The position numbers and the translations under genes are program-made. The notes under the pieces are model-generated. The model was not told the DNA's origin. It ran no database searches and saw only the letters and a program-made list of their open reading frames with translations. 64,000 bases of DNA, taken from positions 3,635,799 through 3,699,798 of the forward strand of contig JAJEKV010000040.1 of assembly GCA_021234155.1 (NCBI GenBank). Direction: 5' to 3'. This DNA comes from Isoetes taiwanensis. Taxonomy: Eukaryota > Streptophyta > Lycopodiopsida > Isoetales > Isoetaceae. Of the stretch, positions 15,571 through 47,950 are shown one piece after another. Every line of letters begins with the position of its first letter. Position 1 is the first letter of the stretch.

Positions 15571-16205
15571 AATATAGAAGTTGGGTCCGTTTTTTATCCT
15601 GGCGTGCATTTTCGTGGCGCCACGTGGCGCAGCCCAATATTGCGGAATGGAAGTTGGCTGAACACATTCCGCCTGACCGGCTGCGCAGGTTAGGGTTCTT
15701 CTTTTTGTTTTAGGGTTCTTTATTTTTAGGGCCGCCGCATATCGTCGGTTGCAGATCGTCGGTTGCAGGTCGATGCACGCATATCGTCGTTGCAGATCGA
15801 AGATGAAGCATGAAGCTTCTTCTTCACACAGATCCCCGCTGTAATAGAGAAGCAGAAGCTTGTTCTTGACACAGATCTTCACATAGATGAAGCTTGTTCT
15901 TCATACAGATCTTCTGATTTCTTTAATCTGTTTGCTCTGCTCGCCATAGCAGAGCATTTTTGAAGCCCTGGTTTGATCTGCTTTGCACGATCTTGAAGCC
16001 CTGAGCTGAAATGTTTTGATGGATCTTGAAACCCCGCTTTTGCGGATCTTGAAAACACAGATCGCTTTTGCCGCGAGCTATGCTCTATTTTGCTCTTTTC
16101 GCAAGATCCAAAAGCCATGCTCGCTTCCGTTTGATTTTTGAAGCTCTGCTTTCGTTTTTTTTTTGGATCTGCTGAGGGAAAAAAACGTCCCCAACTTCTA
16201 TATTG
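15571..16205. mobile_element. MITE-like element with terminal inverted repeats
   Basis: The left end 'acaatatagaagttggg', continuing into a T-rich run, matches the reverse complement of the right end 'cccaacttctatattgt' at about 16189-16205, which is preceded by an A-rich run. About 28 bp pair with few mismatches. The interior has degenerate repeats around 'gatcttgaagccctg' and no protein. No clear target-site duplication was found, so the class is unassigned. Confidence 0.5.
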
Positions 16206-16206
16206 T

Positions 16207-16322
16207 AGGGGAATGGAGGTTGGGGCCTCCATTCCGGTTTCCAGGTGACCCGCTCCCGGCTAACGCCGGTCGCGGGACCCCACCTGGAAACTCGGAATGG
16301 AGGCCCCAACCTCCATTCCCCT
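16207..16322. repeat. Long nested palindrome upstream of CYP74
   Basis: The arms at 16207-16247 and 16281-16322 are almost perfect reverse complements (about 41 bp). Each arm is itself a hairpin, GGAATGGAGG...CCTCCATTCC. The centre contains ccggc-taac-gccgg. It ends 265 bp before the CYP74 start codon. It could extrude as a cruciform or give a hairpin RNA. Confidence 0.9.
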
Positions 16323-16586
16323 ATACATTAATGCACCTATTGACCTTAGCACTTGTGTCCCATATAAGACGTGTAATTGATCCTATTGACATCACCATAT
16401 TGACTTGGTTTTGCATTTTTTATGTTTCGTCCATTCTTATCCCCAAGTATTGGACATTTATGTGTAGGCTAATACTCTTCAAATATCTGTTCCCAATTGT
16501 TGGCAACGAATTTCTGTTAATTGCCATACTCATACTAGCTTCTGCTCCAAATTGGTCACAGCGGATTGATCAAATTTACTTATAAT

Positions 16587-18011
16587 ATGGCAGAAACGTC
16601 AGATTTGCCCCTCAAAGAGATTCCAGGCAGCTATGGAACGCCATTTTTTGGAGCAGTGAATGACAGAGTAGAGTTTTTCGACCTGGGAGATGCTGGATTT
16701 GTTCAGAAAAAAATAGACACATACAACAGCACGGTTCTAAGAACCAATATGGCTCCAGGACCTCCGGGATTTCCAGATCCAAGAGTCATTCTGCTTGCAG
16801 ATCAAAGCAGCTTCAAGGTTCTGTTTGATATGGACAAGGTGATGAAAAAGGACCTGTTTACAGGCACTTACATGCCAAGCACTTCCTTTACAGGAGGTTT
16901 CAGAGTTCTGCCATATCTAGATCCTGTAGAAGATGAAGAAGACCATACAAAATTGAAGAAGTTTTGCTTCTGGGTCTTGTCTTCTAATGCCTCAAAATGG
17001 TTCCCTGAATTTGAAGAGGCGATTCATGAAGCCTTTTTGTCCTGGGAAAATGAGATCGAGAAAAATGGAAAGGTTGGATTTGCTGATATAACAGGGGATT
17101 TTACGTTTAAATTCCTGGCCAGATCTGCATTGACCAAGGATGCAAATTTAGCAAAGGCACCAAGTTATATACAATGGTGGCAAGTTCCTCAGCTTCTTCC
17201 GATCGCATCAGCAGGTTATCCTAAATGCATAGAACAAACATTTCTGCATTCATTTCCGCTGCCGTTCTGCCTGGTAGCATGGCAGTACAAAAAAATAACA
17301 GATCTGTTCGAAAAATACGGTACGGTTGCACTGGATTATGCAGAAAAAGAATTGGGTTTGAATCGGAAGCAAGCGCTGCATAATTTGATATTTTTTATAT
17401 GCTTCAACACGTATGGAGGAATTCAGATTCTGTTTCCTGCGCTGATAAACAGAATCAGCGTAGCAGGAGAAGATCTACAGAAGAAACTAAGGGAAGAAAT
17501 CAGATCTGCTGTAGAGGAAAATGGAGGAAAAATCGATCTGGGCGCTCTAGAAAAAATGCCGCTACTGCATTCGACAGTATACGAGACACTAAGGATTGAG
17601 CCGCCAGTGAAATGGCAGTATGGAAGAGCCAGAAAAGACATAGTCATAAGCTCTCACACTGCAGCATTCAAGGTGAAAAAGGGTGAAATGCTTGCTGGGT
17701 TTCAGCCTTCTGTAACCAGAGATCCTTTGGTCTTTGATAATCCAGATACTTTCATTGCAGACAGATTCTTGGGAGCTCAAGGGCACAATTTGCTGCAGTA
17801 TGTTTACTGGTCTAATGGCCCTGAGACCTGCTCCCCTTCTATTGAAAACAAACAGTGTGCTGGTAAGGATTTTGTTGTCATGATTGCTAGACTCTTTGTT
17901 GCACACATGTTTTTGAGGTATGATTATTTCCAGTTTGACCAGCCTCTTGTTAAGGGCTCCTCTACCACTTATACCTTCATCAAGCTTCAAAGAGCCCTTC
18001 ATTGTGCTTAA
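16587..18011 (+). CDS. CYP74: CYP74-family cytochrome P450 (allene oxide synthase-like)
   Basis: Intronless, 474 codons, from the ATG at 16587 (the frame is open a few codons upstream but lacks an ATG). CYP74 enzymes rearrange fatty-acid hydroperoxides without O2 or a reductase, giving allene oxides, aldehydes or divinyl ethers. Visible features: 'IPGSYGTPFFG' at residues 12-22; 'LFTGTYMPST' near 90-99, where AOS-type members keep Phe (here F91); I-helix 'FNTYGG' at 273-278, lacking the usual acid-Thr pair; ExxR as E333/R336; haem loop 'NKQCAGKDFVV' with C424. The F91 context and TGTYMPST favour allene oxide synthase (first step to jasmonate-type oxylipins), but hydroperoxide lyase cannot be excluded. 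The protein begins 11 residues before IPG, so there is no obvious plastid transit peptide. A truncated copy lies at 29217 and a third 3' flank at 31685. Confidence 0.9.
   Translation: MAETSDLPLKEIPGSYGTPFFGAVNDRVEFFDLGDAGFVQKKIDTYNSTVLRTNMAPGPPGFPDPRVILLADQSSFKVLFDMDKVMKKDLFTGTYMPSTSFTGGFRVLPYLDPVEDEEDHTKLKKFCFWVLSSNASKWFPEFEEAIHEAFLSWENEIEKNGKVGFADITGDFTFKFLARSALTKDANLAKAPSYIQWWQVPQLLPIASAGYPKCIEQTFLHSFPLPFCLVAWQYKKITDLFEKYGTVALDYAEKELGLNRKQALHNLIFFICFNTYGGIQILFPALINRISVAGEDLQKKLREEIRSAVEENGGKIDLGALEKMPLLHSTVYETLRIEPPVKWQYGRARKDIVISSHTAAFKVKKGEMLAGFQPSVTRDPLVFDNPDTFIADRFLGAQGHNLLQYVYWSNGPETCSPSIENKQCAGKDFVVMIARLFVAHMFLRYDYFQFDQPLVKGSSTTYTFIKLQRALHCA

Positions 18012-29118: not shown

Positions 29119-29145
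<27 letters not shown>
29119..29145 (+). repeat. L1-A poly-A tail
   Basis: A run of about 27 A directly followed by the right target-site duplication tcgttaggga at 29146-29155. Confidence 0.9.
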
Positions 29146-29216
29146 TCGTTAGGGATGCGTGATGTCTATGATATCATAGGCAATACCCCAAAAAAAAAAA
29201 AAAAAAAAGAGAAAAA

Positions 29217-29869
29217 GAAAGCAAGTGTTGCACAATGTGATATTTTGTATATGCTTCAACACATATGGAGGAATTCAAATTCTGTTCCCGGCTCTGATAA
29301 ACCGAATAAGCGAAGCAGGAGAAGATCTGCAGAAAAAACTAAGGGAAGAAATCATATCTGCGGTGGAAGCAAATGGAGGAAAAATTGATCCGGGCACTCT
29401 AGAAAAAATGCCACTACTGTAGTCGACAGTTTACGAGACACTAAGGATTGAGCTGCCAGTGAAATGGCAGTATGGAAGAGCCAGAAAAGACATAGTCATA
29501 AGCTCTCACACCGCATCATTCAAGGAGAAAAAGGGTGAGATGCTTGCTGGCTTCCAGCCTTCTGTGACCACAGATCCTTTGGGCTTTGATAATCCACACA
29601 CTTTCATGGCAGACAGATTCTTGGGAGCTCAAGGGAACAATTTATTGCAGTATGTTTACTGGTCTAATGGCCTTGAGACTTTCTCCCCTTCTATCCACAA
29701 CAAACAGTGTGCTAGTAAGGATTTTGTTGTCATGATTGCTAGAATGTTTGTTGCACACTTAAGGTATGATTATTTCCAGTTTGACCAGCCTCTTGTTAAG
29801 GGCTCCTCTACACTTATACCTTCATCAAGCTTCAAAGAGCCCTTCATTGTATTTAAAAGGAGCCTTTGA
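29217..29869 (+). pseudogene. Truncated CYP74 pseudogene
   Basis: Homologous to 17367-18011 of the intact gene; it starts just before the I-helix and so lacks about 260 N-terminal residues. 'FNTYGGIQILFPALINRISE' is retained. A TAG replaces the CAT codon after 'LEKMPLL' (about 29420). The haem loop reads 'NKQCASKDFVV' (Gly to Ser after Cys). Six bases are missing before 'LRYDYF', and a 1-nt deletion in the 'SSTTY' region (about 29811) shifts the end. It follows an A-rich tract (29190-29215), but the copy is probably a genomic duplicate because its 3' flank is shared far beyond the stop codon. Confidence 0.9.
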
Positions 29870-31973: not shown

Positions 31974-34900
31974 TCCTCCCTCGCGGCCCACACCCTCTCA
32001 GCCACATGCTGCCTCCGCTCCATCTACTTCTCACTCAGCCTCTGCTTCCCGTCCTCCCCCCGCGACTCAGGCTGCGCATACCATCCCTGCTGACAAATAG
32101 GAATTGTGTCTCCGGGTGGTCTCATGGAACTGTCGAGGCTTCCCTTGGCAGAAGGGGGACAGTCTGAACTCCGTGGCAGCCGGTATGGATCTCATCTTCC
32201 TCATGGAGACATGGGAGCATGCTGGACACAGGCTACCTGATTTGCCGGGTTACCAACATTTCTCGGTCTTCAATACCTGTACAGGACAGCGGGGTCATGG
32301 TGGAGTGGCTTGCTACTACCGGACAACCTTGGCACATTCGGTTACCCTCCGAGGAACGCATGCATTTTAACCGGTACCACGGGTTCGTGTGCATAATACC
32401 GGTGGCAACCCTCTTTTTACGGCGCTGTTATTTTTCCCTCACGCCAGACAAAGACCTTCTATCGCAGCCACCCGATCTGGATAGGATGGACCCGTATGTC
32501 GATCTATATGATGACATACAAAGCCGACATCAGCGCTTGGGTAGGGTCGTCCTTCTTGGAGATTTCAATGCACGGACGGGGAGTAGAGCAGCCCATGCGA
32601 CTTGACCCCCTCGGCGACGATGTCTGCCAGAAACGCGCCCGGTAGCCCGCCGCGTGGTCGGATGACGGCCGTCACTTTCGCTTTGGCGGACGGTTGCTCT
32701 GCTATGTGGCATTTTGACTTGATAATTTGCAATGGCCTTTCCGCGGTGGCCCGATTCACCGCAAGTGCACATGCGAGCGGAGGACAATCGGGGGGAGGGT
32801 CTAGTGTGGTGGACTATGTGCTTGTAGTTGCGCCAAGATATGCATCTCATCGGTCGTTTCCGGGTGGGCACAGGCGCATCGGGGATGAGGAGATCGACTT
32901 CGAGATCACCTCCCACTTTATTTGGACCTGGTTTGGCGAGCGCCCGGAGACCCCCACTATGCCGGCCCCTGGCCGTCCTCGTTGAGACTTCGATTATGAG
33001 CGGCCGTAGGACTACGCCGATGCTCATGAACGCCCTCCCGGTGCTGGAACCTCCACACTAGAGGCGTATTGATGCACCGGTGACTTATTATTACGGATCA
33101 GCGGACCCGTGCTTTGGCGGACCCCCGTGTCGCGCTTCGGGGTCAGCAACATTCCAGCGTAACCGATGGTTTGATGCGGACTGTAAAAGAACGCATGGCG
33201 GCGGCTCAAATCATCACGGATCCGGTACCGGCTTGCCAGAAAGCCACCACCTGATCAGCCCATCCGGCGGACACAAAGGCGGTACCTTCTTGCCAAGCAT
33301 CGGGGGAGATGTTACGGCCTGCTGACACTCATCCTCGAACCTTTTGGCGCAGAGTGCTTCGAGGCCAGCCCCAGCCTACTGAGGGGACATCACACCCGGC
33401 AGTGGGGGAATAAGACTTGCGGCGGCTCTATGACCCGCCAGGGGGACGCGTCGCCCATACCCCCCAAGGGATGGCCCCCCATTGGTTCTCGTGGATGAGG
33501 ATGTTGAGGAGGGCCCGCAACGGCTAGCTAATGGGAAGGCAAATGACCTCGATGGTATGCGGTAGAGCTACTCAAGTGGGCGGGGCACCGCTTGTGCGGT
33601 CCTCCTCACTACCCTTCGCTCAACGAAAGCATTGCGGAGGGTTTCCCCGACAATGGACCCTGGCGGGTTGTTCCCATTCACAAAGCGAGGCGATTCCACA
33701 CCGTCCGCCAATTACCGGACGATCATGGTCGGGCTTCGGTATTTTGCCAAACCGTTATCGGCATTCTCGAGCAAAGCAGCTTGACCTACCCAGAGGCGAG
33801 GCGGATGTGCGAGCCCTCACACAGGCGGGCTTTTCGACCCGCCACTCCAACGATTGACCATATCTTTACGCCTGGGCAATCGATTGAAGACAAATTTTAA
33901 TCACCTACTGGACTTGTATTGCTGCTTTGTGGACTTCGCAAAAAGGCTTTTGATACGGTCCCCCTGAAAAGTTGTGGGCTAGATCAAGTCAATCGGGGCT
34001 CCCACGCACCGTGCGTAATGCCATATCACGGGTTGTATGAGAGTTGTTTTGGCGGGGATGCGGTCGGCCAGCCAAGCATTTACCAAGAGTATCGGGTCCC
34101 GGGGTTGCCCCCTCTTCGCCGACACTTTTGGCCTCTACATTGATCGGTTAGAGCCACGGCTTCTGCGAGCATGGGGATGGCATACATCTTTTTGCACCGT
34201 GTCATCCGCCCGGCTCATCTATGGGACGATGTTGGCTGCTGGCCCACACCCGAAGATATGCGGTCTCACCCGGATGCCCTAGACACATTTTGTCGCTCTG
34301 AATTATCGCAGCGTCAATCTGCCAAGACCGGGGTGGTTCTCATATCCTCTTCACGTCACCCCATGCCTCCCCGCACTCACATATCGGGGGCGACTGTGGG
34401 CGCCACGCCCACCTACAAGTACCTAGGGGTGGAGTTCCCCCTCCTCGCCTCTGGCGGGAGGCGCCTATCCGCTTATGGGTGACAGCGGTAGCCGAAAGCG
34501 CTTTATGCAATCGCGAACAAATACCACCGTGAGCTATATGATTGGGGCCATCGGTCACATCTGTTCCGGCCGGTCGGTAGCCTGTCCTACATGCGGGGTC
34601 GAGGTTTGGGGCCCGGTCGTCTCTTTGACGACACGGAATGACTTGGAGCAGGTGCGAAGGCATTTTTGGCACGGGCACTTGGGTGAAACCTTCGGTCCCC
34701 TATCGGTCTGGCTGCGAAATCGGATTCTTGCCGCCCAGCAGCAGCCCTTGATAGACACATCGTCTATTTTCGAGAAAGTGGTTACTATGGGTGATGCTCG
34801 GCTCCCGCGACCTGGCTTACACTTGTGGCCATGAGTCCGCAATGCTTAGGGCCCGTTGGAGGGGTAAGAGAGATCGGTGGTTCGCCAGATGGAACGCGGC

Positions 34901-35628
34901 AGAGCACGTCATTGTCGGGGCGCAATGTCGATCGTGACAAACTGCGGGAGTACCTAGATGCTTGTTTCCTTGGCAAGCTCGATCCCATTGCTCTAGAGCA
35001 GTCAAAATGGCCCATTACAAGGAGCACATCAACCCCGTGTTAGCCCGGGGCCCACAAACTCTACCTGCGTTCCCCGCCTGCCCAAAAAGCCGCAGCTCAT
35101 TGCCTCCATTCGCGCAGTGCCCACCATCTTCGCGATCGAGGCGGGCAGGTGGATTGGGGAGCCCCGCCCGGGGCGTGCTCGCTGTCGGGCTTTGCCAAAC
35201 GGGTGCCGCTTGAGGATGAGTCTCACACTTTCCGTGAGTTGCCCGGCGTTCACCGGTTCGGGCCGATCACGCCCTCCTTAGTACGGCTGACGTGCCCTTG
35301 CATTTGCCGATGAACACACCGTCGATGCGTGCCACGGGTCATACATCCGTGAGGTAATCGGACTGCGCGAGGTCACCTTTGCCCCCGCCGGTCCGTGACT
35401 AGGCACTACGGGTGGTGCATGATCAGATATATTGGGATGTTTCGCATTTTATATGATTAGCACGCTTTGTCGTCAGGCCGATTGTCGCCACGGTTTTTCC
35501 CTCGAAAACCCTTCGGGGGGGGTTTTAATCCGGCAAGAATCCGCTTCTTTGCGTTTTTGTATTGGGTCCCATAGACCGATTGGTCTCCGTGGACGATAAA
35601 AGTAACTTCCTTCCTTCCTTCCTTCCTT
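31974..35628 (+). mobile_element. GC-rich non-L1 LINE (RTE/I/Jockey-like pattern), degenerate
   Basis: Starts with a Pro/Ser/Ala-rich leader, then an endonuclease start 'RVVSWNCRGFPWQKGDS' after an in-frame stop, 'DLIFLMETWEHAGH', 'RVVLLGDFNARTGS' near 32560 and 'SSVVDYVLV'. RT pieces include 'TPTIDHIFTPGQSIEDKF' (to 33897), 'KKAFDTVP' near 33950 after a 1-nt frameshift, and 'FGLYIDRLEPRLLRAWG'. The catalytic Tyr-x-Asp-Asp place near 34218-34230 is disrupted by a small deletion. The 3' UTR has a hairpin module (35494-35541), the 3' module (35565-35601) and a ttcc tail (35606-35628). The 'DFRKAFDTVP' and 'FGLYID' style differs from L1. Many frameshifts; dead. Confidence 0.8.
35494..35628 (+). 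repeat. LINE 3' end: hairpin module, conserved module, ttcc tail
   Basis: Hairpin module: 'cggtttttccctcgaaaac', then 'ccttcggg' and 'ggttttaatccgg'. Conserved module: 'ggtcccatagaccgattggt' followed by 'ctccgtggacgataaaa', then repeated ttcc. The same order occurs at 39462-39578 (+) and, reversed, at 45055-44689. Confidence 0.75.
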
Positions 35629-35639
35629 TAAAAGGTCCC

Positions 35640-37180
35640 AGAGATATTGAAATACGTCGTGAACCACGTGATGAGAAGATGTGTGCTCGAAACCTACAAT
35701 ATCCAAATAGAAATACAACATAGGCTAAAATTGAATTGTATCGTCCATGATGACCAGATGGCCTATGGGGCCCAAATAAACAAAGAACAACCTGGAGAAT
35801 GAGTGATGAAAAGAGGGTTAGTCCATCTTACCTATAAAGTATCAATGTATTCCCTAGCTTACAGTCAGCTACTAGCTAGATAAAGAGTTTGGATAATAAG
35901 TCTCGGGGCTTTTCCTAAAGATAAGAGTGCTCACTTACTGGTTGGCAAATTACATGCATTAAAACTAGGGTTCCGCTTCGATTCGCCCCTCTCCCAAAGC
36001 CTTGTGAGGACAAGATCAATTTGAATGTTAATGGTGAGATTTGGAGTTTGGGGACCACATCGCCCATAGCAAAGCCCGTAATACCATCTCCACTAATCCA
36101 GGGGCTCATCAAGCCATACTAGTGGAGGTGGCCACCTTGGTGACCCAACTGAGTCATGACCTAAGTGCCCGCGAGCAAAACCATAGATTGATGCCATTAA
36201 AACTAAAGCTTGGAAATAAAGGGATGGAGGTGAGGATTTTCCTTCCAACTACTCCACGTCAGGAGAGACCCTCAACCTTGCCCTTCGTGGAATACCCAAA
36301 CAGTGTGCCAGTCACGCCGATGCTGGGTTGAACTAGATCACGCCCCATGCATTATACTCAGCTCGTGACAATCCTTCTATTGGTTCATGAAGATCACAGG
36401 TGGGTGAACAAGGTTCAAGGTCTGTAGATTAGGAGCATACTAATAAATGTATACTAATCTTACAGGCCAAGATTGTTACTACAAGAGGTAGTTCCTTTCC
36501 ATGTTATGCAATGAGTGCAAGGTTAACAGCCAGATCATCCATCATACATAGAATGCAACATAGTAACAAGATCATACATCAAGATCAAAGAACATATCAC
36601 ATATCCAAAAATAGAACATACTAAGATCGTAAAGCATCAAGTAAAGGTCTGGACTAACCGTGCGTCGTCCACAACGAAGAGCTTGAAGGTCAAGAGGTAA
36701 TCGTGAGCGAGGTCCAATGTGAATGCGCTAGAATCAAGGCGTGTGACTCGAGGTAGAAGGAGCCAAAGGTGAAAGTAGAAACTGGGAGTATTTATAGTGA
36801 GGGGTCAAACATTAAATGTGACTTTCATGTTAAAACGTGAACATGTAACATTCTAGGGAATGGTCCTTATGCACAAATATCAACATTACAACAACACTAC
36901 AAGCGTAAAAGGACGCACAAAACCAAAACAAGCACTGGTAAACCAACCACGAACCCCTAGACGACAACGCATCATACATCCAAGCAACACACCGACCAAC
37001 CGAACAAAAACCAGAAAAGCTACCAAAGAGTACTATGCGCCGAACCTAACATGACCCCTGCAGAAACTAGACATCCAAGGGAACGACAAAGCAAAACAAG
37101 GACCGACTCTAGACCCCAAACACCAACGAAAAAGACGCCAGAAACAACAAAGAAAAAGGAAGAGGGAGGGAAGGGACCAA
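35640..37180. other. Non-coding stretch, nothing recognised
   Basis: Mixed-composition sequence without a credible gene; the open frame at 36041-36331 has no recognisable domain. No structural signal beyond background was found. Confidence 0.35.
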
Positions 37181-42419: not shown

Positions 42420-43740
42420 CAACATCTCTATTTTTTTGACAAAACAGAACTATGGCTATTGATCTTGAAAAAACATCCCCTAGGCTCCTCCGGATTGCAA
42501 ATAGGAGCTCCAACTCTTGCGCCCTGTTTGTGAGACTGCTACAAACAACCACTCCAAATGCATAAGGAAGGGATGGACCACGAAATATAGCAAAACAATA
42601 TAACATGTAGCTATAAAGGCTTTCCTTTTATTAGCTTCAATATCTATCTTTATATAAATTCTATTCTTTATATAAAGAGTCCACCTTTATATTTATAAAT
42701 GGTCCACCTTTTTCTATTTTAGGCTTGATGCCATAATAATATCTTCTCGACCCTTAGATATTTTAATGGCCTTAGATAAGGTCCTTAAAACCAATGGTCC
42801 ATTAAAAAAAACAACATTTTTTATTAAGAACTTTTTTCTTCAACCAAAATTTTGAAAAAAGCATTTGCCAATGTAATTGGAGAAGAAAGCTTGAGGATGA
42901 AGACCATACTAGCAATCCAACATGTCGATGTAGCGTGCTCCATTTCTCTGGTTTAGATATAGGTCGAACTCCACAGCACTTAGGTAAGGTTTTTAAAATT
43001 TCATATTAAAAACCATTTTCCTTAGCTAAGGGATTTATTAGTGCATCTAATGTAAGAACTCAAAACTTTCGCACTTTCAGCTTAAAAATCTCTAAGGTCT
43101 TATGACTGCAACTTAGTAATATCTTAGTTGAATTCAACCATGTATAGAATGCAAATGCTTACTAATTGTCACTACTTGCCATTATTATTCAGACCCGCTC
43201 TTCATGCTCGACTTTCCTCTGTTGACTAAAATTTTTCCTTAAGCCAAGGCGCAACCCAATTCCATCAATGGTTACCTAGCCTTATATTTCAACAAGCCAA
43301 CAAAAAGATGGACTAAGGAATTATTAAACAAAGAAAAATTAGACTAAACAAAATTATGTCAACGAATAACACAACAAGCCAAAACAGTCCACTCCATCAT
43401 CTTGCAGTTCCAAGTCCGTTTATGCAAAGGTTTTTCTTCTAAAATCATGTTTTTGGCATGTCCTGACCAAATTTGCCCTTGTTCTTAAATTTGGTCCTTT
43501 TTCAACCATTTCAACCTGTCTCATTTCAATTTGCTCTTCCTCTTCTCTCGGCAGTACCTTATTCTCTTTGAATTGTTTCCAGGCAGGGGAGGGGCTTCTT
43601 CCTGCCTGGTTTGGCCAATTTGGCGTTGCTTTCCTGCTGTCCTTTTCGGCCTTTAGCCTTCATCCTGTGACCTTCGTCCTCGATCCTAGTTTGTTAAGGA
43701 AGTCCTTTGGTATTCGGGCGCTTTGTTGGTTTCATGCGAG
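42420..43740. other. Non-coding AT-rich DNA
   Basis: No credible gene or structured repeat. The short frame at 43568-43762 has no recognisable domain. Confidence 0.35.
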
Positions 43741-43744
43741 TCGC

Positions 43745-44560
43745 AGTGCAAGAATGTCATAGATAGGCTTCTCATTCATCTCAGCAGATTTCTACAATGG
43801 TGGACAGTGGATAGCCGCACACATGCGAACTACCCACGAAAAATAAAGGGAAATCCAATTATATCACTTGGACCCCAAAAACAAATACAATGCTAATAGA
43901 TGAGTGGCTGATGTACCTGCCGAAAGCTTATCACCGGGATTAAAAAACCCCGCCCTTTCGGGTTTTCGAGGAAAAACCCTAGTGATAAGCCTTCGGCAAG
44001 GGGCTTAGACAAACGTTAAGGCATAGAATCGCTCCCAAAAACCCCCGCATGGAGAAGTCAAAACGGATGGCGTTCGCCAACCTGCACCTGCACATCACCA
44101 ACACAATAAACGAGAAACATACCAGAGAATAGCATCACCCAGTGGGTGGAAAGAAAGCATCACCCACCGGGTGGAAAAACATGATAAACAGAACTTGTAC
44201 AAAATATAAACAAAGAAGGGGGGGAGGGTGGGTTCAAAGAGAATAAGGTACTGCTGAGAGAAGAGGAAGCGCCGATGAAACGTCGATGAAGAACTCTGCA
44301 ATAAGTAGCAAACGCCCAACCCGAAGAACGGCCTAAAACGCATGCGACGCATGCATGCGACGCATGCAATGCATGCATGCTCGTCTTGAGCAAGAATGCC
44401 GATTCGCTACGCGAATCGACGACATAGATGACATTGAAATCACTGTTTTCAAAGTACAGAGAGCGGATGCCTACATAAATATCTCATCTATTTTAGACGC
44501 GAAACAACATTTGTTTCATCATTGTTTATTCTGGTAAGAGACCCGCAAAGAACACAAAAA
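43745..44560 (-). repeat. Structured dispersed repeat (family X), copy A
   Basis: In plus orientation it contains 'cattcatctcagcag', 'gtacctgcc', a long hairpin (43918-43998), two short palindromes 'catcacccaNNgggtgg' (44133 and 44158), purine-rich 'ggggggagggtgggttc', and a gcatgc-rich stretch (44340-44392). Copy C (46707-47430) has the same order. The hairpin module equals the reverse complement of the LINE 3' hairpin at 35494, so the family is probably read on the minus strand. No protein. Confidence 0.6.
43918..43998 (-). repeat. Long hairpin with variable outer stem, copy 1
   Basis: The arms tgccgaaagcttatcac (43918-43934) and gtgataagccttcggca (43982-43998) pair at 16 of 17 positions. 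They enclose an inner hairpin of aaaaccc / gggtttt around cgccctttc. Confidence 0.85.
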
Positions 44561-44688
44561 ACGGCCATAGATAGCCTTGTCATTCATCACAGCAGCAGTA
44601 TACAATGTGTGGGAAAATCTTAATGGGGAGCCGACCATAGGAACAATGTCTAGCTACCCCATAAATGAAATAAGAAAATATGCAAAGG

Positions 44689-45055
44689 CAAGATAAGATA
44701 AGATAAGATAAGATAAGATAAGATTTTTTATCGTCCACGAGAAACCTATCGGGTTATGGGACCAGAACAAAGAAAGAGGGCATGAGCCCCCAACATAACA
44801 AAAAGGCCTAAGCCTAAATAAAGTACAGCATGGAGACGAAGCCCCGTAACAAAACATGAAAGAAATAACAAAAAGAGCTAACTAATAAGGCACTATGCAT
44901 ATCCCAGCCAAGGGTGCTCAGGCCAGTGGTCGCGAATGATAGCTGTGCCCCCTCTGTACACTGCCCATTTGTTCTGCATCCGAGCCAAGAGAGAGGACAA
45001 TGGCGACAACTTCACATCGAGATAAAAAAACCCTGCCCTTTCGGGTTTTCGAGGA
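44689..45055 (-). mobile_element. Retroelement 3' end (minus strand): hairpin module, 3' module, (atctt)n tail
   Basis: Read on the minus strand: the hairpin module at 45055-45018 ('ggttttcctcgaaaacccga'), about 250 bp of spacer, the conserved 3' module at 44763-44725 ('ggtcccataacccgatagg', 'tttctcgtggacgataaaa'), then seven atctt-type repeats (44724-44689). It has the same organisation as 35494-35628 with a different tail. Confidence 0.7.
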
Positions 45056-45322
45056 AAACCCTAATGAGAAATGGTCGCCAACGGCCTCGAGGATGCCCTG
45101 AAGAGCAAGGTAGGAAATTGGTGAAGCCAGCCAAAACGCGCATCAACGCCATGGAATGTGTGAAACCTGGAAAAAGGGAGAAATCCCTAAAAAGTATCCG
45201 TTAAATGTGATTCTAGGTACAACCATGGCAGGTGAGCACCCCCTAAGAAAATAGTCCCCAAAAAGCAAAAAAAGCCCATTAGACATTAGGAAACATAAAC
45301 AAACATATATAGAAATAGAAAA

Positions 45323-45546
45323 CACCACCAAGAGGTGGAAAAAGAAAAATAACGTCACCAACAGGTGGAAATCATCTAGCATCACCCAACGGGTGGAAAA
45401 CTATAGATAGCATCGCCTAGTGGGTGGCAAATAATTTGCATCAGCCATCGGGTAGAAAAACATATTACCCAATGGGTCGTCAATACTGAACATAAACATA
45501 TAAAAAATAGACGACAATAATCACCATAGCAACACCCAATGAGTGG
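45323..45546. repeat. Array of seven short palindromes, about 17 bp each
   Basis: Units start at 45323, 45353, 45380, 45411, 45439, 45463 and 45530, on the pattern catcacccaNNgggtgg; most vary at a few positions but keep pairing between the CACC and GGTG sides. Spacers are about 10-14 bp except the last. Two more units are at 44133 and 44158. On RNA these would be short stem-loops. This is a plant repeat, not a CRISPR array. Confidence 0.75.
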
Positions 45547-45649
45547 AGGATAACGGAGTTAGTATTAAAAAGAAAATGAACATGAACATGAAACAAATTC
45601 AAAACTATATAAAAGGGAGGGTAGAGAGGGAAACAATGGGCAAGGAAGA

Positions 45650-45770
45650 GACGTTGTTGTGAGAAGACGCCGATAACCAACCACAAGAATGATATAGTGC
45701 ATATATAGCTGCTCGTCCCTTCCTAGAATGCTGATCCGATGGCTCGGATCGATGCCTATTCTGGTAAGAG
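45650..45770 (-). repeat. Family X segment shared with 62892-63000
   Basis: 'gacgttgttgtgagaagacg', 'ccgataaccaaccacaagaa', 'gtgcatatatagctgctcgt' and 'cccttcctagaatgc' occur in the same order in both places, in the same orientation. The minus strand has a TATA-like 'ctatatatgcac'. Confidence 0.75.
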
Positions 45771-45799
45771 ACTCGCAAAGAATACAAAAGCTGGCCGAC

Positions 45800-46700
45800 A
45801 ACGAGAGAACTTCCTAGCTGACGAGAAACATCAAGAGATTGAGTTAGAGTCCAAATGACATAGCAAGAGTGAGAAGACGGCGACTGTCATCCGCTTGAAG
45901 CATGAGCACCAGCATGCGAAACTCCTTGGGCCGCTTCTACTGAGGCACAGTTGCGACGAACAAAGTGCATATCGTGTGGGTGTAAGGCGAAGATAACATG
46001 ATAGGGTCAAAATCAAGGTCGAAGGAGATGGTAAGGTAATGATGAAGGATACAAAAAGGAACTTTTCTAAGCATAAATGTTACAGAATGAATGACACGCA
46101 TCAATATCATGAACATTGTAGAGCAATTTCTCGGAAAAAAGGGCAACAACGTAACATAATTTAGGCTTAGGCAAAATATGAGAAAGGGTGAATGCTGGGC
46201 CTGGGAACAAATGCAACAAGAAACAACCATAGGGTGCAAGGTGAAGGTAAGGTTATGGTCAATGATATAGGGGAGATGAAGGGCGAGAGTATCAAGGTTA
46301 GAGCGGAATTCTTGAGGTTGACGATATGACAAAATGTGGCTAGCGAGAACAAAGGATCTAAAAAATGAAAAATCTGGACAAGGTTGCAATAAGAATGTAA
46401 AAAACGTCAATGACAACATAGATCATGTCTGTAGTAAAAATTGCAATGGAGTGTCAAACACAAATATGTCATAACCAGAAAAATGAGAACCAAAGAGGAT
46501 ATATCCAATATAAAACCCATGCCACAAAAACTCAATGAAGTGCCAAATGCAAATAACTCGTACGCATATAAAGCAAGTATAAAAGATGTGAAATGATATA
46601 TGATAATGGGGTAAGGCTACTGCCTAAAAACTGTAAAAAAACAACAACAAGACATATAATGTAAACTTAAAATTGGCCAAATAAAATGTACTTGTAACAA
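45800..46700. other. Non-coding repeat-like DNA
   Basis: Purine-rich sequence. The open frame on the minus strand at 45937-46419 looks low-complexity and has no domain. The text around 46440-46560 is partly shared with the sequence split by L1-B (51510-51540 and 59440-59560). Confidence 0.35.
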
Positions 46701-46706
46701 AAACGT

Positions 46707-47430
46707 GTAATTCTCGAGCTGCGACTCGCATGACACAACAACGCCCGATGGATGGGGCTTTTCTATTCATCCCAGCAGTGTAATTACAATGGTAGAGAGT
46801 GGGTAGCTGCATATCGCAAGCTACCCAAAAAACAAAAAATACAGGGAATATCCAGTCATAACACCTGGACCCCAAAATACAAAAATATATCATAGATGTT
46901 TGGCTAGTGTACCTGCCTAGGGCTTATCGCCGGGATTAAAAAACCCCGCCCTTTCGGGTTTTCGAGGAAAAACCCTAGCGATAAGCCCTAGGCAATGGCT
47001 TAGACAACGCCCGCCGCTAAACTTCCCAAAACCCACGCTCAAAAAGAAACCAACGCCGCAACAACGCATACATACACGCATAAGACCACAAAACACAATA
47101 GAGAAGAACAAAAACCCTCAAAAAAGCGAGGGTTGATTAAAGCTGCGCCACGCGAACAACATATATAAACAAAAAATACTTAAGGGAGGGAGGAGGGAGA
47201 GCATAGAACATAACCCCAAACATCACTTCTTGGTAAGAGAAAGCCCATGAGAAGCTGAAGGCGAATGCAGGAAGAAATAGCGATCCCCTAACCGGATGAG
47301 AGGCCCGAAATGCATGCAATGCATGCAGTAACGATGTAATCTTGCATGCTCGTTCGCTCGAGAATCGCGATCCGGTCGATCGATCCGGCATTCTCGAAGC
47401 CGCGACTGCATGACACAACAACGCCTCGAA
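46707..47430 (-). repeat. Structured dispersed repeat (family X), copy C, with flanking direct repeats
   Basis: Flanked by near-identical segments of about 36 bp: 'attctcgagctgcgactcgc' and 'atgacacaacaacgcc' at about 46707-46743, and 'attctcgaagccgcgactgc' and 'atgacacaacaacgcc' at about 47394-47430. The interior holds 'cattcatcccagcag', 'gtacctgcc', the hairpin at 46914-46994, purine-rich 'gggagggaggaggg' and a gcatgc-rich stretch. Confidence 0.65.
46914..46994 (-). repeat. Long hairpin with variable outer stem, copy 2
   Basis: The arms tgcctagggcttatcgc (46914-46930) and gcgataagccctaggca (46978-46994) pair perfectly over 17 bp. They enclose the same inner hairpin as 43918-43998. Confidence 0.9.
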
Positions 47431-47459
47431 AGAAGAGAACTTCCCCTACGATCCGAGAT

Positions 47460-47950
47460 GAAGGCTCAAGAATTGCCCCATAGTGGAGGAATGCCGAGGT
47501 AGAAGCTAGACGAGAAGGATAGGAAGAGATACGAAAGATAGGAAACGCCAGAAGGGATGCGCCAGAAAGGTCAACGCAGCCAAGGTAGAAGAGAACCGAA
47601 ACGATAAGAAACGCCGAAGGGATACGCCAGAAAGGTCAGTCAAGAGAAACAAGAATGATAGGAAATGCCACGAAAAGGTCAACCCATGCAAGAGGAAGCC
47701 CTCCTCCGCATGAGAGCATAGAACATAACCTCAAACACACGGCGGGCGAAGAGAAAGCGCCGGCGAGAAGCCAAGGCTTAATGCAGAAGAAATAGCGATC
47801 CCTAACCGGATGAGAGGCCCGAATGCATGCAATGCATGCAGGCAACGCATGCAACTCTTGCATGCTCGTCTGGCTCGAGAATCGCGATCCGTCGGATCGA
47901 TCTGCATGCATTTGGAAAGCAATATAAAAATGTTAACTAAAAGATAGATA
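47460..47950. repeat. Degenerate tandem repeats and second gcatgc-rich stretch
   Basis: Segments of about 70 bp with 'aggaaacgccagaagggatg' and 'cgccagaaaggtca' recur around 47520-47690. A further family X end with 'gagaggcccgaatgcatgca' and 'ctcgagaatcgcgatccg' lies at 47808-47905. Confidence 0.55.

Follow-up and report, generated by a model that had tools for sequence, protein, structure and literature searches.

A conserved, probably ENE-type RNA hairpin in LINEs and Helentron-like elements of Isoetes taiwanensis

A hairpin repeat in the stretch of Isoetes taiwanensis DNA analysed here (64,000 nucleotides, hereafter the window) is, judging from its anatomy and covariation, probably an ENE in transposon RNA. 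An ENE, or element for nuclear expression, is a U-rich loop that folds a poly(A) tail into a triple helix and shields the RNA from decay. Copies A, B and E read as such on the minus strand, the copy within a LINE on the plus strand (Table 1). That it represents a conserved RNA structure can be held with high confidence: the outer stem, P1, is kept by compensatory change, and the core and cap are kept by sequence. At least eight families were distinguished by parsing 70 distinct copies on the core alone, with the arms left unfitted. Families A to E reside in non-autonomous rolling-circle (Helentron-like) elements, F and G in the 3' untranslated regions (UTRs) of LINEs, and H in an unclassified element.

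Table 1. Hairpin copies and their carriers in the window, with the 5' P1 arm of each family
Feature	Positions	Strand	Details
ENE-like hairpin, copy A	43918-43998	-	P1 arms 43918-43934 / 43982-43998; 43936-43979 holds the U-rich loop, the upper stem and the GAAA cap
ENE-like hairpin, copy B	46914-46994	-	P1 arms 46914-46930 / 46978-46994; core 46932-46975
ENE-like hairpin, copy E	45001-45080	-	Core as in A and B; 17-nt P1 unrelated; slightly decayed in the window
ENE-like hairpin, copy F	35473-35548	+	Within LINE 3' UTR, on the LINE sense strand; cap UUCG, not GAAA
Family A rolling-circle-type non-autonomous element	43716-44425	+	Carries hairpin A; 43716-43755 inverted relative to most copies
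Family E rolling-circle-type element	44529-45756	+	5' TTCTGGTAAG...; 3' subterminal complement, then terminal hairpin ...GATCCGATGGCTCGGATCGATGCC
Family B composite	46711-47906	+	Two head-to-tail units, 46711-47392 and 47390-47906; hairpin B in the first
LINE, family F	32101-35640 (extent approximate)	+	Frames broken; endonuclease domain 32101-32370; ORF2 C-terminal part to ~35390
Third LINE family, 5'-truncated	44690-44985	-	Same terminal stem-loop, (TCTTA)n tail; inserted in family E element
Family A 5' P1 arm, minus sense			TGCCGAAGGCTTATCAC
Family B 5' P1 arm, minus sense			TGCCTAGGGCTTATCGC
Family C 5' P1 arm, minus sense			TGCAGAGGGCTTATCAC
Family D 5' P1 arm, minus sense			TGCCGAGATTTTATCGC
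Family E 5' P1 arm, minus sense			TGGCGACCATTTCTCAT
Family F (LINE) 5' P1 arm, minus sense			about CCAGGCTGATTGTCGCC
Family G (LINE, (CTATT)n tail) 5' P1 arm, minus sense			CAGCATGCTTATTACTG
Family H 5' P1 arm, minus sense			about CAGTGAGCCCATTACTAT

Copies A and B, the pair on which a preliminary description of this DNA had centred, are both present and share an identical 47-nt interior, as had been claimed. Their outer 17-nt stems pair to the reported extent, at 16/17 in copy A (plus-strand arms TGCCGAAAGCTTATCAC / GTGATAAGCCTTCGGCA) and 17/17 in copy B (TGCCTAGGGCTTATCGC / GCGATAAGCCCTAGGCA); the sole A:C mismatch of copy A on the plus strand corresponds to G.U in minus-strand RNA, in which both stems pair at 17/17. 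The arms differ at four positions on the left and three on the right, where about five per arm had been counted, and the mirroring described between arms applies to three of the changes, the other being one-sided. RNA folding of A and B gave z-scores of -4.4 and -5.9 for the plus strand and -6.2 and -6.9 for the minus strand, with none of 200 dinucleotide shuffles folding as well. Both copies are embedded in longer related repeats with approximately 80% identity across approximately 250 bp. The version of the inner hairpin noted at the 3' end of a LINE was also found (copy F), and copy E, with its quite different P1, had been overlooked.

In LINE sense, which is the minus sense of A, B and E, the hairpin comprises a P1 of approximately 17 nt, a GGG/CCC lower stem, U4-5 facing U5-6, an upper stem and a cap, with the core reading GGG-U4/5-CC(C)UCG-AAAA-CCC-N4-GGG-CGGGG-U5/6-A(A)U-CCC. 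The upper stem (CC(C)UCG/CGGGG) carries an A4 bulge, and the cap is a CCC-N4-GGG tetraloop, which reads CCC-GAAA-GGG in families A, B and E, whereas F, G and H have CCC-UUCG-GG(G). The U4-5 and U5-6 tracts lie opposite each other in most copies retrieved, and G-C pairs flank the U-loop at both ends, as GG/CC below it in 17 of the 18 rows aligned and CC/GG above it in most rows. While P1 changes freely, the core is nearly invariant across families, and the upper arm with its A4 bulge is invariant. A family-blind ENE descriptor (an internal loop of U4-7/U4-9 flanked on either side by two or more G-C pairs) returned four matches in the 64-kb window, namely A, B, F and 16035-16075, against 0.03 per 64 kb in Markov controls. 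The match at 16035-16075 (+), cgcTTTTgcgg...gcTTTTgccgcg, is unrelated in sequence to the other copies and may be due to chance.

Several features distinguish the two strands. Only in the minus (LINE) sense are GAAA and UUCG standard, stable RNA tetraloops, and the minus strand is the more stable in all six families folded. At the family level, six G.U pairs occur on the minus strand where the plus strand has A.C, with one case of the reverse. The ENE fold with an open U-loop lies 0 to approximately 2 kcal/mol above the minimum free energy (MFE) structure. An alternative pairing, AAAACCC:GGG(G)UUUU, can form in every sequence inspected, and for the LINE copy it is as stable as the MFE structure.

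P1 has been rewritten from family to family, yet in every family the 3' arm pairs with the 5' arm of that family, although one or two central mismatches are common. Over nine arm sets, 139 pairs form when each arm keeps its own partner, compared with 84 +/- 10 when arms are swapped, and none of 200,000 permutations was as high; the permuted values are raised by the related families A to D, which makes the test conservative there, and the independent lineages are few. In an 18-sequence alignment, 85.5% of the cells in P1, lower stem, upper stem and cap are paired (shuffles, 72.0 +/- 1.1), 78 paired cells are doubly changed (31.5 +/- 4.1 when shuffled, 12-24 with slid partners) and the covariation score is 0.397 (0.178 +/- 0.016), under shuffle controls that ignore relatedness among eight families amounting to few independent lineages. 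Both sides have changed in 16 pairs, including the lower stem by the U-loop and one upper-stem pair, and the lower-stem pair nearest P1 occurs as GC, CG and AU. The count of further pair types in the same 18 sequences does not exceed that of shuffles (37 versus 36.6). RNAalifold independently recovers P1 together with the lower stem and counts 14 pairs in which both sides have changed; for the cap it prefers another pairing.

Inside a family, uncompensated single changes are far more numerous than paired ones, as is expected if selection acts on a few active source copies while ordinary copies decay. The check for covariation and for unpaired differences has two outcomes: family founders covary strongly, and old individual copies hold uncompensated changes. 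Of the two explanations first offered, selection for an RNA structure in a mobile repeat is supported by a P1 that is rewritten yet paired, by the near-invariant core, by the minus-strand fold in 6/6 families and by the strand-specific G.U pairs. The other, namely conversion of one arm by the other or a template switch across a DNA hairpin, in either case without selection, is in keeping with changes mirrored between copies and with the unusual variability of sites at the hairpin base among family B copies and in family F. It fits poorly, however, with the central P1 mismatches still present in families E, G, D and F, which conversion ought to erase, with the excess of uncompensated over paired changes, and with a conserved core whose caps switch between two RNA-type tetraloops. 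Nor is the six-to-one bias in G.U pairs to be expected from conversion of DNA, and we consider this explanation quite improbable.

Similarly, the size and shape of the hairpin resemble those of a MITE-type precursor of small RNAs (miRNA or siRNA), and a permissive Rfam scan of copy B gave weak, sub-threshold matches to miRNA families. In the hairpin, however, the arms, which would supply the small RNA, vary and the loop is conserved, the reverse of the pattern in miRNAs, and it matches no Rfam family at gathering score, which makes such a precursor very unlikely. At gathering thresholds the whole window had no Rfam match, and a tRNA scan found none; hammerhead, HDV and twister ribozymes were dropped as candidates for want of an Rfam match.

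By the anatomy of their ends, the carriers of families A to E are assigned to non-autonomous Helentron-like rolling-circle elements, the exception being their A/T flanks. The family E element has subterminal inverted repeats (TTCTGGTAAGGGAC... versus GTCCCTTCCCAGAA) followed by a hairpin, and family B has a complementary end pair of its own (TTCTCGAGCTGCGACTCGC and its counterpart). Elements form head-to-tail arrays; the family E loci contain 21 junctions at which a 3' end directly meets a 5' end, and in the window the family E element adjoins the 5' end of the next unit at 45759. Non-autonomous Helentrons (HINE / DINE-1; PMC4067079) share with A to E the lack of coding sequence, the subterminal inverted repeats, the 3' palindrome and the head-to-tail arrays. 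On the other hand, Helentrons are reported to prefer TT for insertion (PMC4067079), whereas insertion of the Helentron type, between two Ts and without duplication, was not found for the carriers: an A precedes the 5' end in 26 of 27 cases and mostly T follows the 3' end, flanks that resemble those of ordinary Helitrons. An assignment of A, B and E to LINE or SINE tails was rejected, as their ends show rolling-circle anatomy.

Two further observations concern these elements. A 40-bp end segment occurs in either orientation beside otherwise alike copies (43716-43755 and 46711-46748). A second hairpin (GGGTAGC...GCTACCC) lies approximately 60-100 nt past the ENE (43790-43840 and 46780-46830 in the window, and family E loci), and it also seems to vary in pairs from family to family.

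In the LINEs of families F and G, the hairpin sits in the 3' UTR on the sense strand; in family G the core begins approximately 50-60 nt past the likely ORF2 stop. A Pfam scan of the family F LINE detected the endonuclease domain only. Its 3' end consists of a terminal stem-loop (GTCCCATAGACCGATTGGTCTCCGTGGAC) and a (TTCC)n tail, and both families have the 3'-terminal stem-loop and short-repeat tails in common. A conserved run of A4-A6 precedes the LINE short-repeat tails (GATAAAAG, GCTAAAAACC, GATAAAAAATC) and may serve as an A-partner or may be unrelated. Among family F copies (window 35460-35560), the outer P1, the cap and the sequence adjacent to P1 are far more variable than the invariant 3'-terminal stem-loop. 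In family H, the ENE core lies approximately 560 nt upstream of a (TATTC)n tail, in an unclassified element that is possibly another LINE.

The position of the hairpin near the 3' end in families F and G would suit a recognition structure for the LINE reverse transcriptase, shared by elements that borrow LINE machinery in the way that SINEs share LINE tails. However, the LINEs hold a separate and better conserved 3'-terminal stem-loop beside the tail; a third LINE family has the same stem-loop and tail, with no ENE in its 290-nt fragment; and the hairpin of family H is remote from its tail. Furthermore, the ends of A to E are rolling-circle-like rather than LINE-like, and downstream of the hairpin these families have nothing significant in common with F and G, so that a role in reverse transcription appears unlikely. 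Rolling-circle capture of a LINE 3' UTR was also rejected, the similarity of A to E and F/G downstream of the hairpin being non-significant (z -1.7 to 1.4). The ENE core appears to be essentially all that the rolling-circle families A to E and the LINE families F and G have in common.

ENEs are defined by a U-rich internal loop between G-C pairs (PMC11411715, PMC12501189), and are known from viral RNA, MALAT1 and plant transposons. The hairpin described here has this U-rich internal loop between G-C pairs in common with the ENEs of PAN and MALAT1, which act in long noncoding RNAs, PAN through its poly(A) tail and MALAT1 through an A-rich tract that it encodes. In both, As follow the U-loop before the lower stem, as they do here. 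As summarized in later work, the survey of plant and fungal transposon ENEs by Tycowski, Shu and Steitz in 2016 comprised approximately 200 motifs, strongly associated with LTR retrotransposons (PMC12501189). Those motifs, so far as the summaries describe them (PMC12501189, PMC12846552), share with ours the U-rich internal loop with G-C flanks, the setting in transposon RNA and the plant host, whereas here the carriers are LINEs and rolling-circle elements, a single genome contains approximately 5,600 exact cores, and the upper arm, with its A4 bulge, is invariant. The ENE in the 3' UTR of the Arabidopsis retrotransposon Evade depends on its U-tracts and on the G-C pairs beside them; when it is lost, RNA stability and transposition both fall (PMC12501189). 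Evade/Copia93 resembles the present case in 3' UTR position, in U-tracts with adjacent G-C pairs and in the proposed poly(A) clamp, but it is an LTR element with four U-rich tracts and demonstrated function (PMC12501189), whereas our hairpin has one loop of two U-tracts and lies in non-LTR and rolling-circle elements.

By analogy with these ENEs, the U-rich loop would engage an A-run at the RNA 3' terminus in U.A-U triples, and such a clamp would guard against deadenylation and raise the level of transposon RNA. P1 would act as an anchoring duplex only, which would leave its sequence free to change in pairs. For the rolling-circle elements, this presupposes transcription of the ENE sense strand, opposite to the usual Helitron orientation. 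Several points speak against the ENE assignment: the tails of the LINE copies consist of (TTCC)n or (CTATT)n and not of poly(A), the upper arm is more invariant than an ordinary ENE would require, and the alternative AAAACCC:GGG(G)UUUU pairing can always form. A self-contained variant, in which AAAACCC is paired to the GGG(G)UUUU further downstream, with the U-tract upstream lying in the groove as third strand, would give an intramolecular triple helix in the absence of poly(A). Such a variant, to which we give a small chance, would explain the invariant A4 bulge and upper arm and would fit LINEs that lack poly(A).

Copy numbers were sampled by DNA and exact-pattern queries of the 1,658,258,908-base assembly (1,110 contigs). 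Used as DNA queries, copies A, B, E and F gave 1447, 2071, 1599 and 2525 candidates, respectively, as rough first-look figures. The core with AAUCC followed by any base but G had 1832 exact matches, the family E core 809 and the LINE-type half core 2968; the reversed patterns that served as controls had no match in the genome. Together these amount to approximately 5,600 as a plain sum and conservatively to more than 5,000, the AAUCC-core and LINE-half-core classes overlapping slightly (family G and some H-like copies) and the rest being separate.

While ENEs in plant transposons were already known, the host elements, the scale and the invariant upper arm look new in comparison with the summary of the Tycowski survey, and our literature search found no earlier report of ENEs in such carriers, again with that survey represented by its summary. 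If the ENE assignment is correct, one lycophyte genome holds thousands of triple-helix RNA clamps in two unrelated classes of transposon, and the sharing of essentially the core only would suggest repeated acquisition of an RNA-protection module. The proposition that transposons use ENEs against deadenylation would then become testable outside LTR elements, and eight ENE families that diverge in P1 would form a natural set for structure-function work.

Elsewhere in the window, a single-exon cytochrome P450 open reading frame (16539-18011, +) is preceded, just to its 5' side, by a long MITE-like inverted repeat (16190-16340). A truncated second copy of the 3' part of this reading frame lies at 29160-29869 (+), and between the two P450 copies lies an L1-type LINE that reaches as far as a poly(A) run, the end of which is near 29145.
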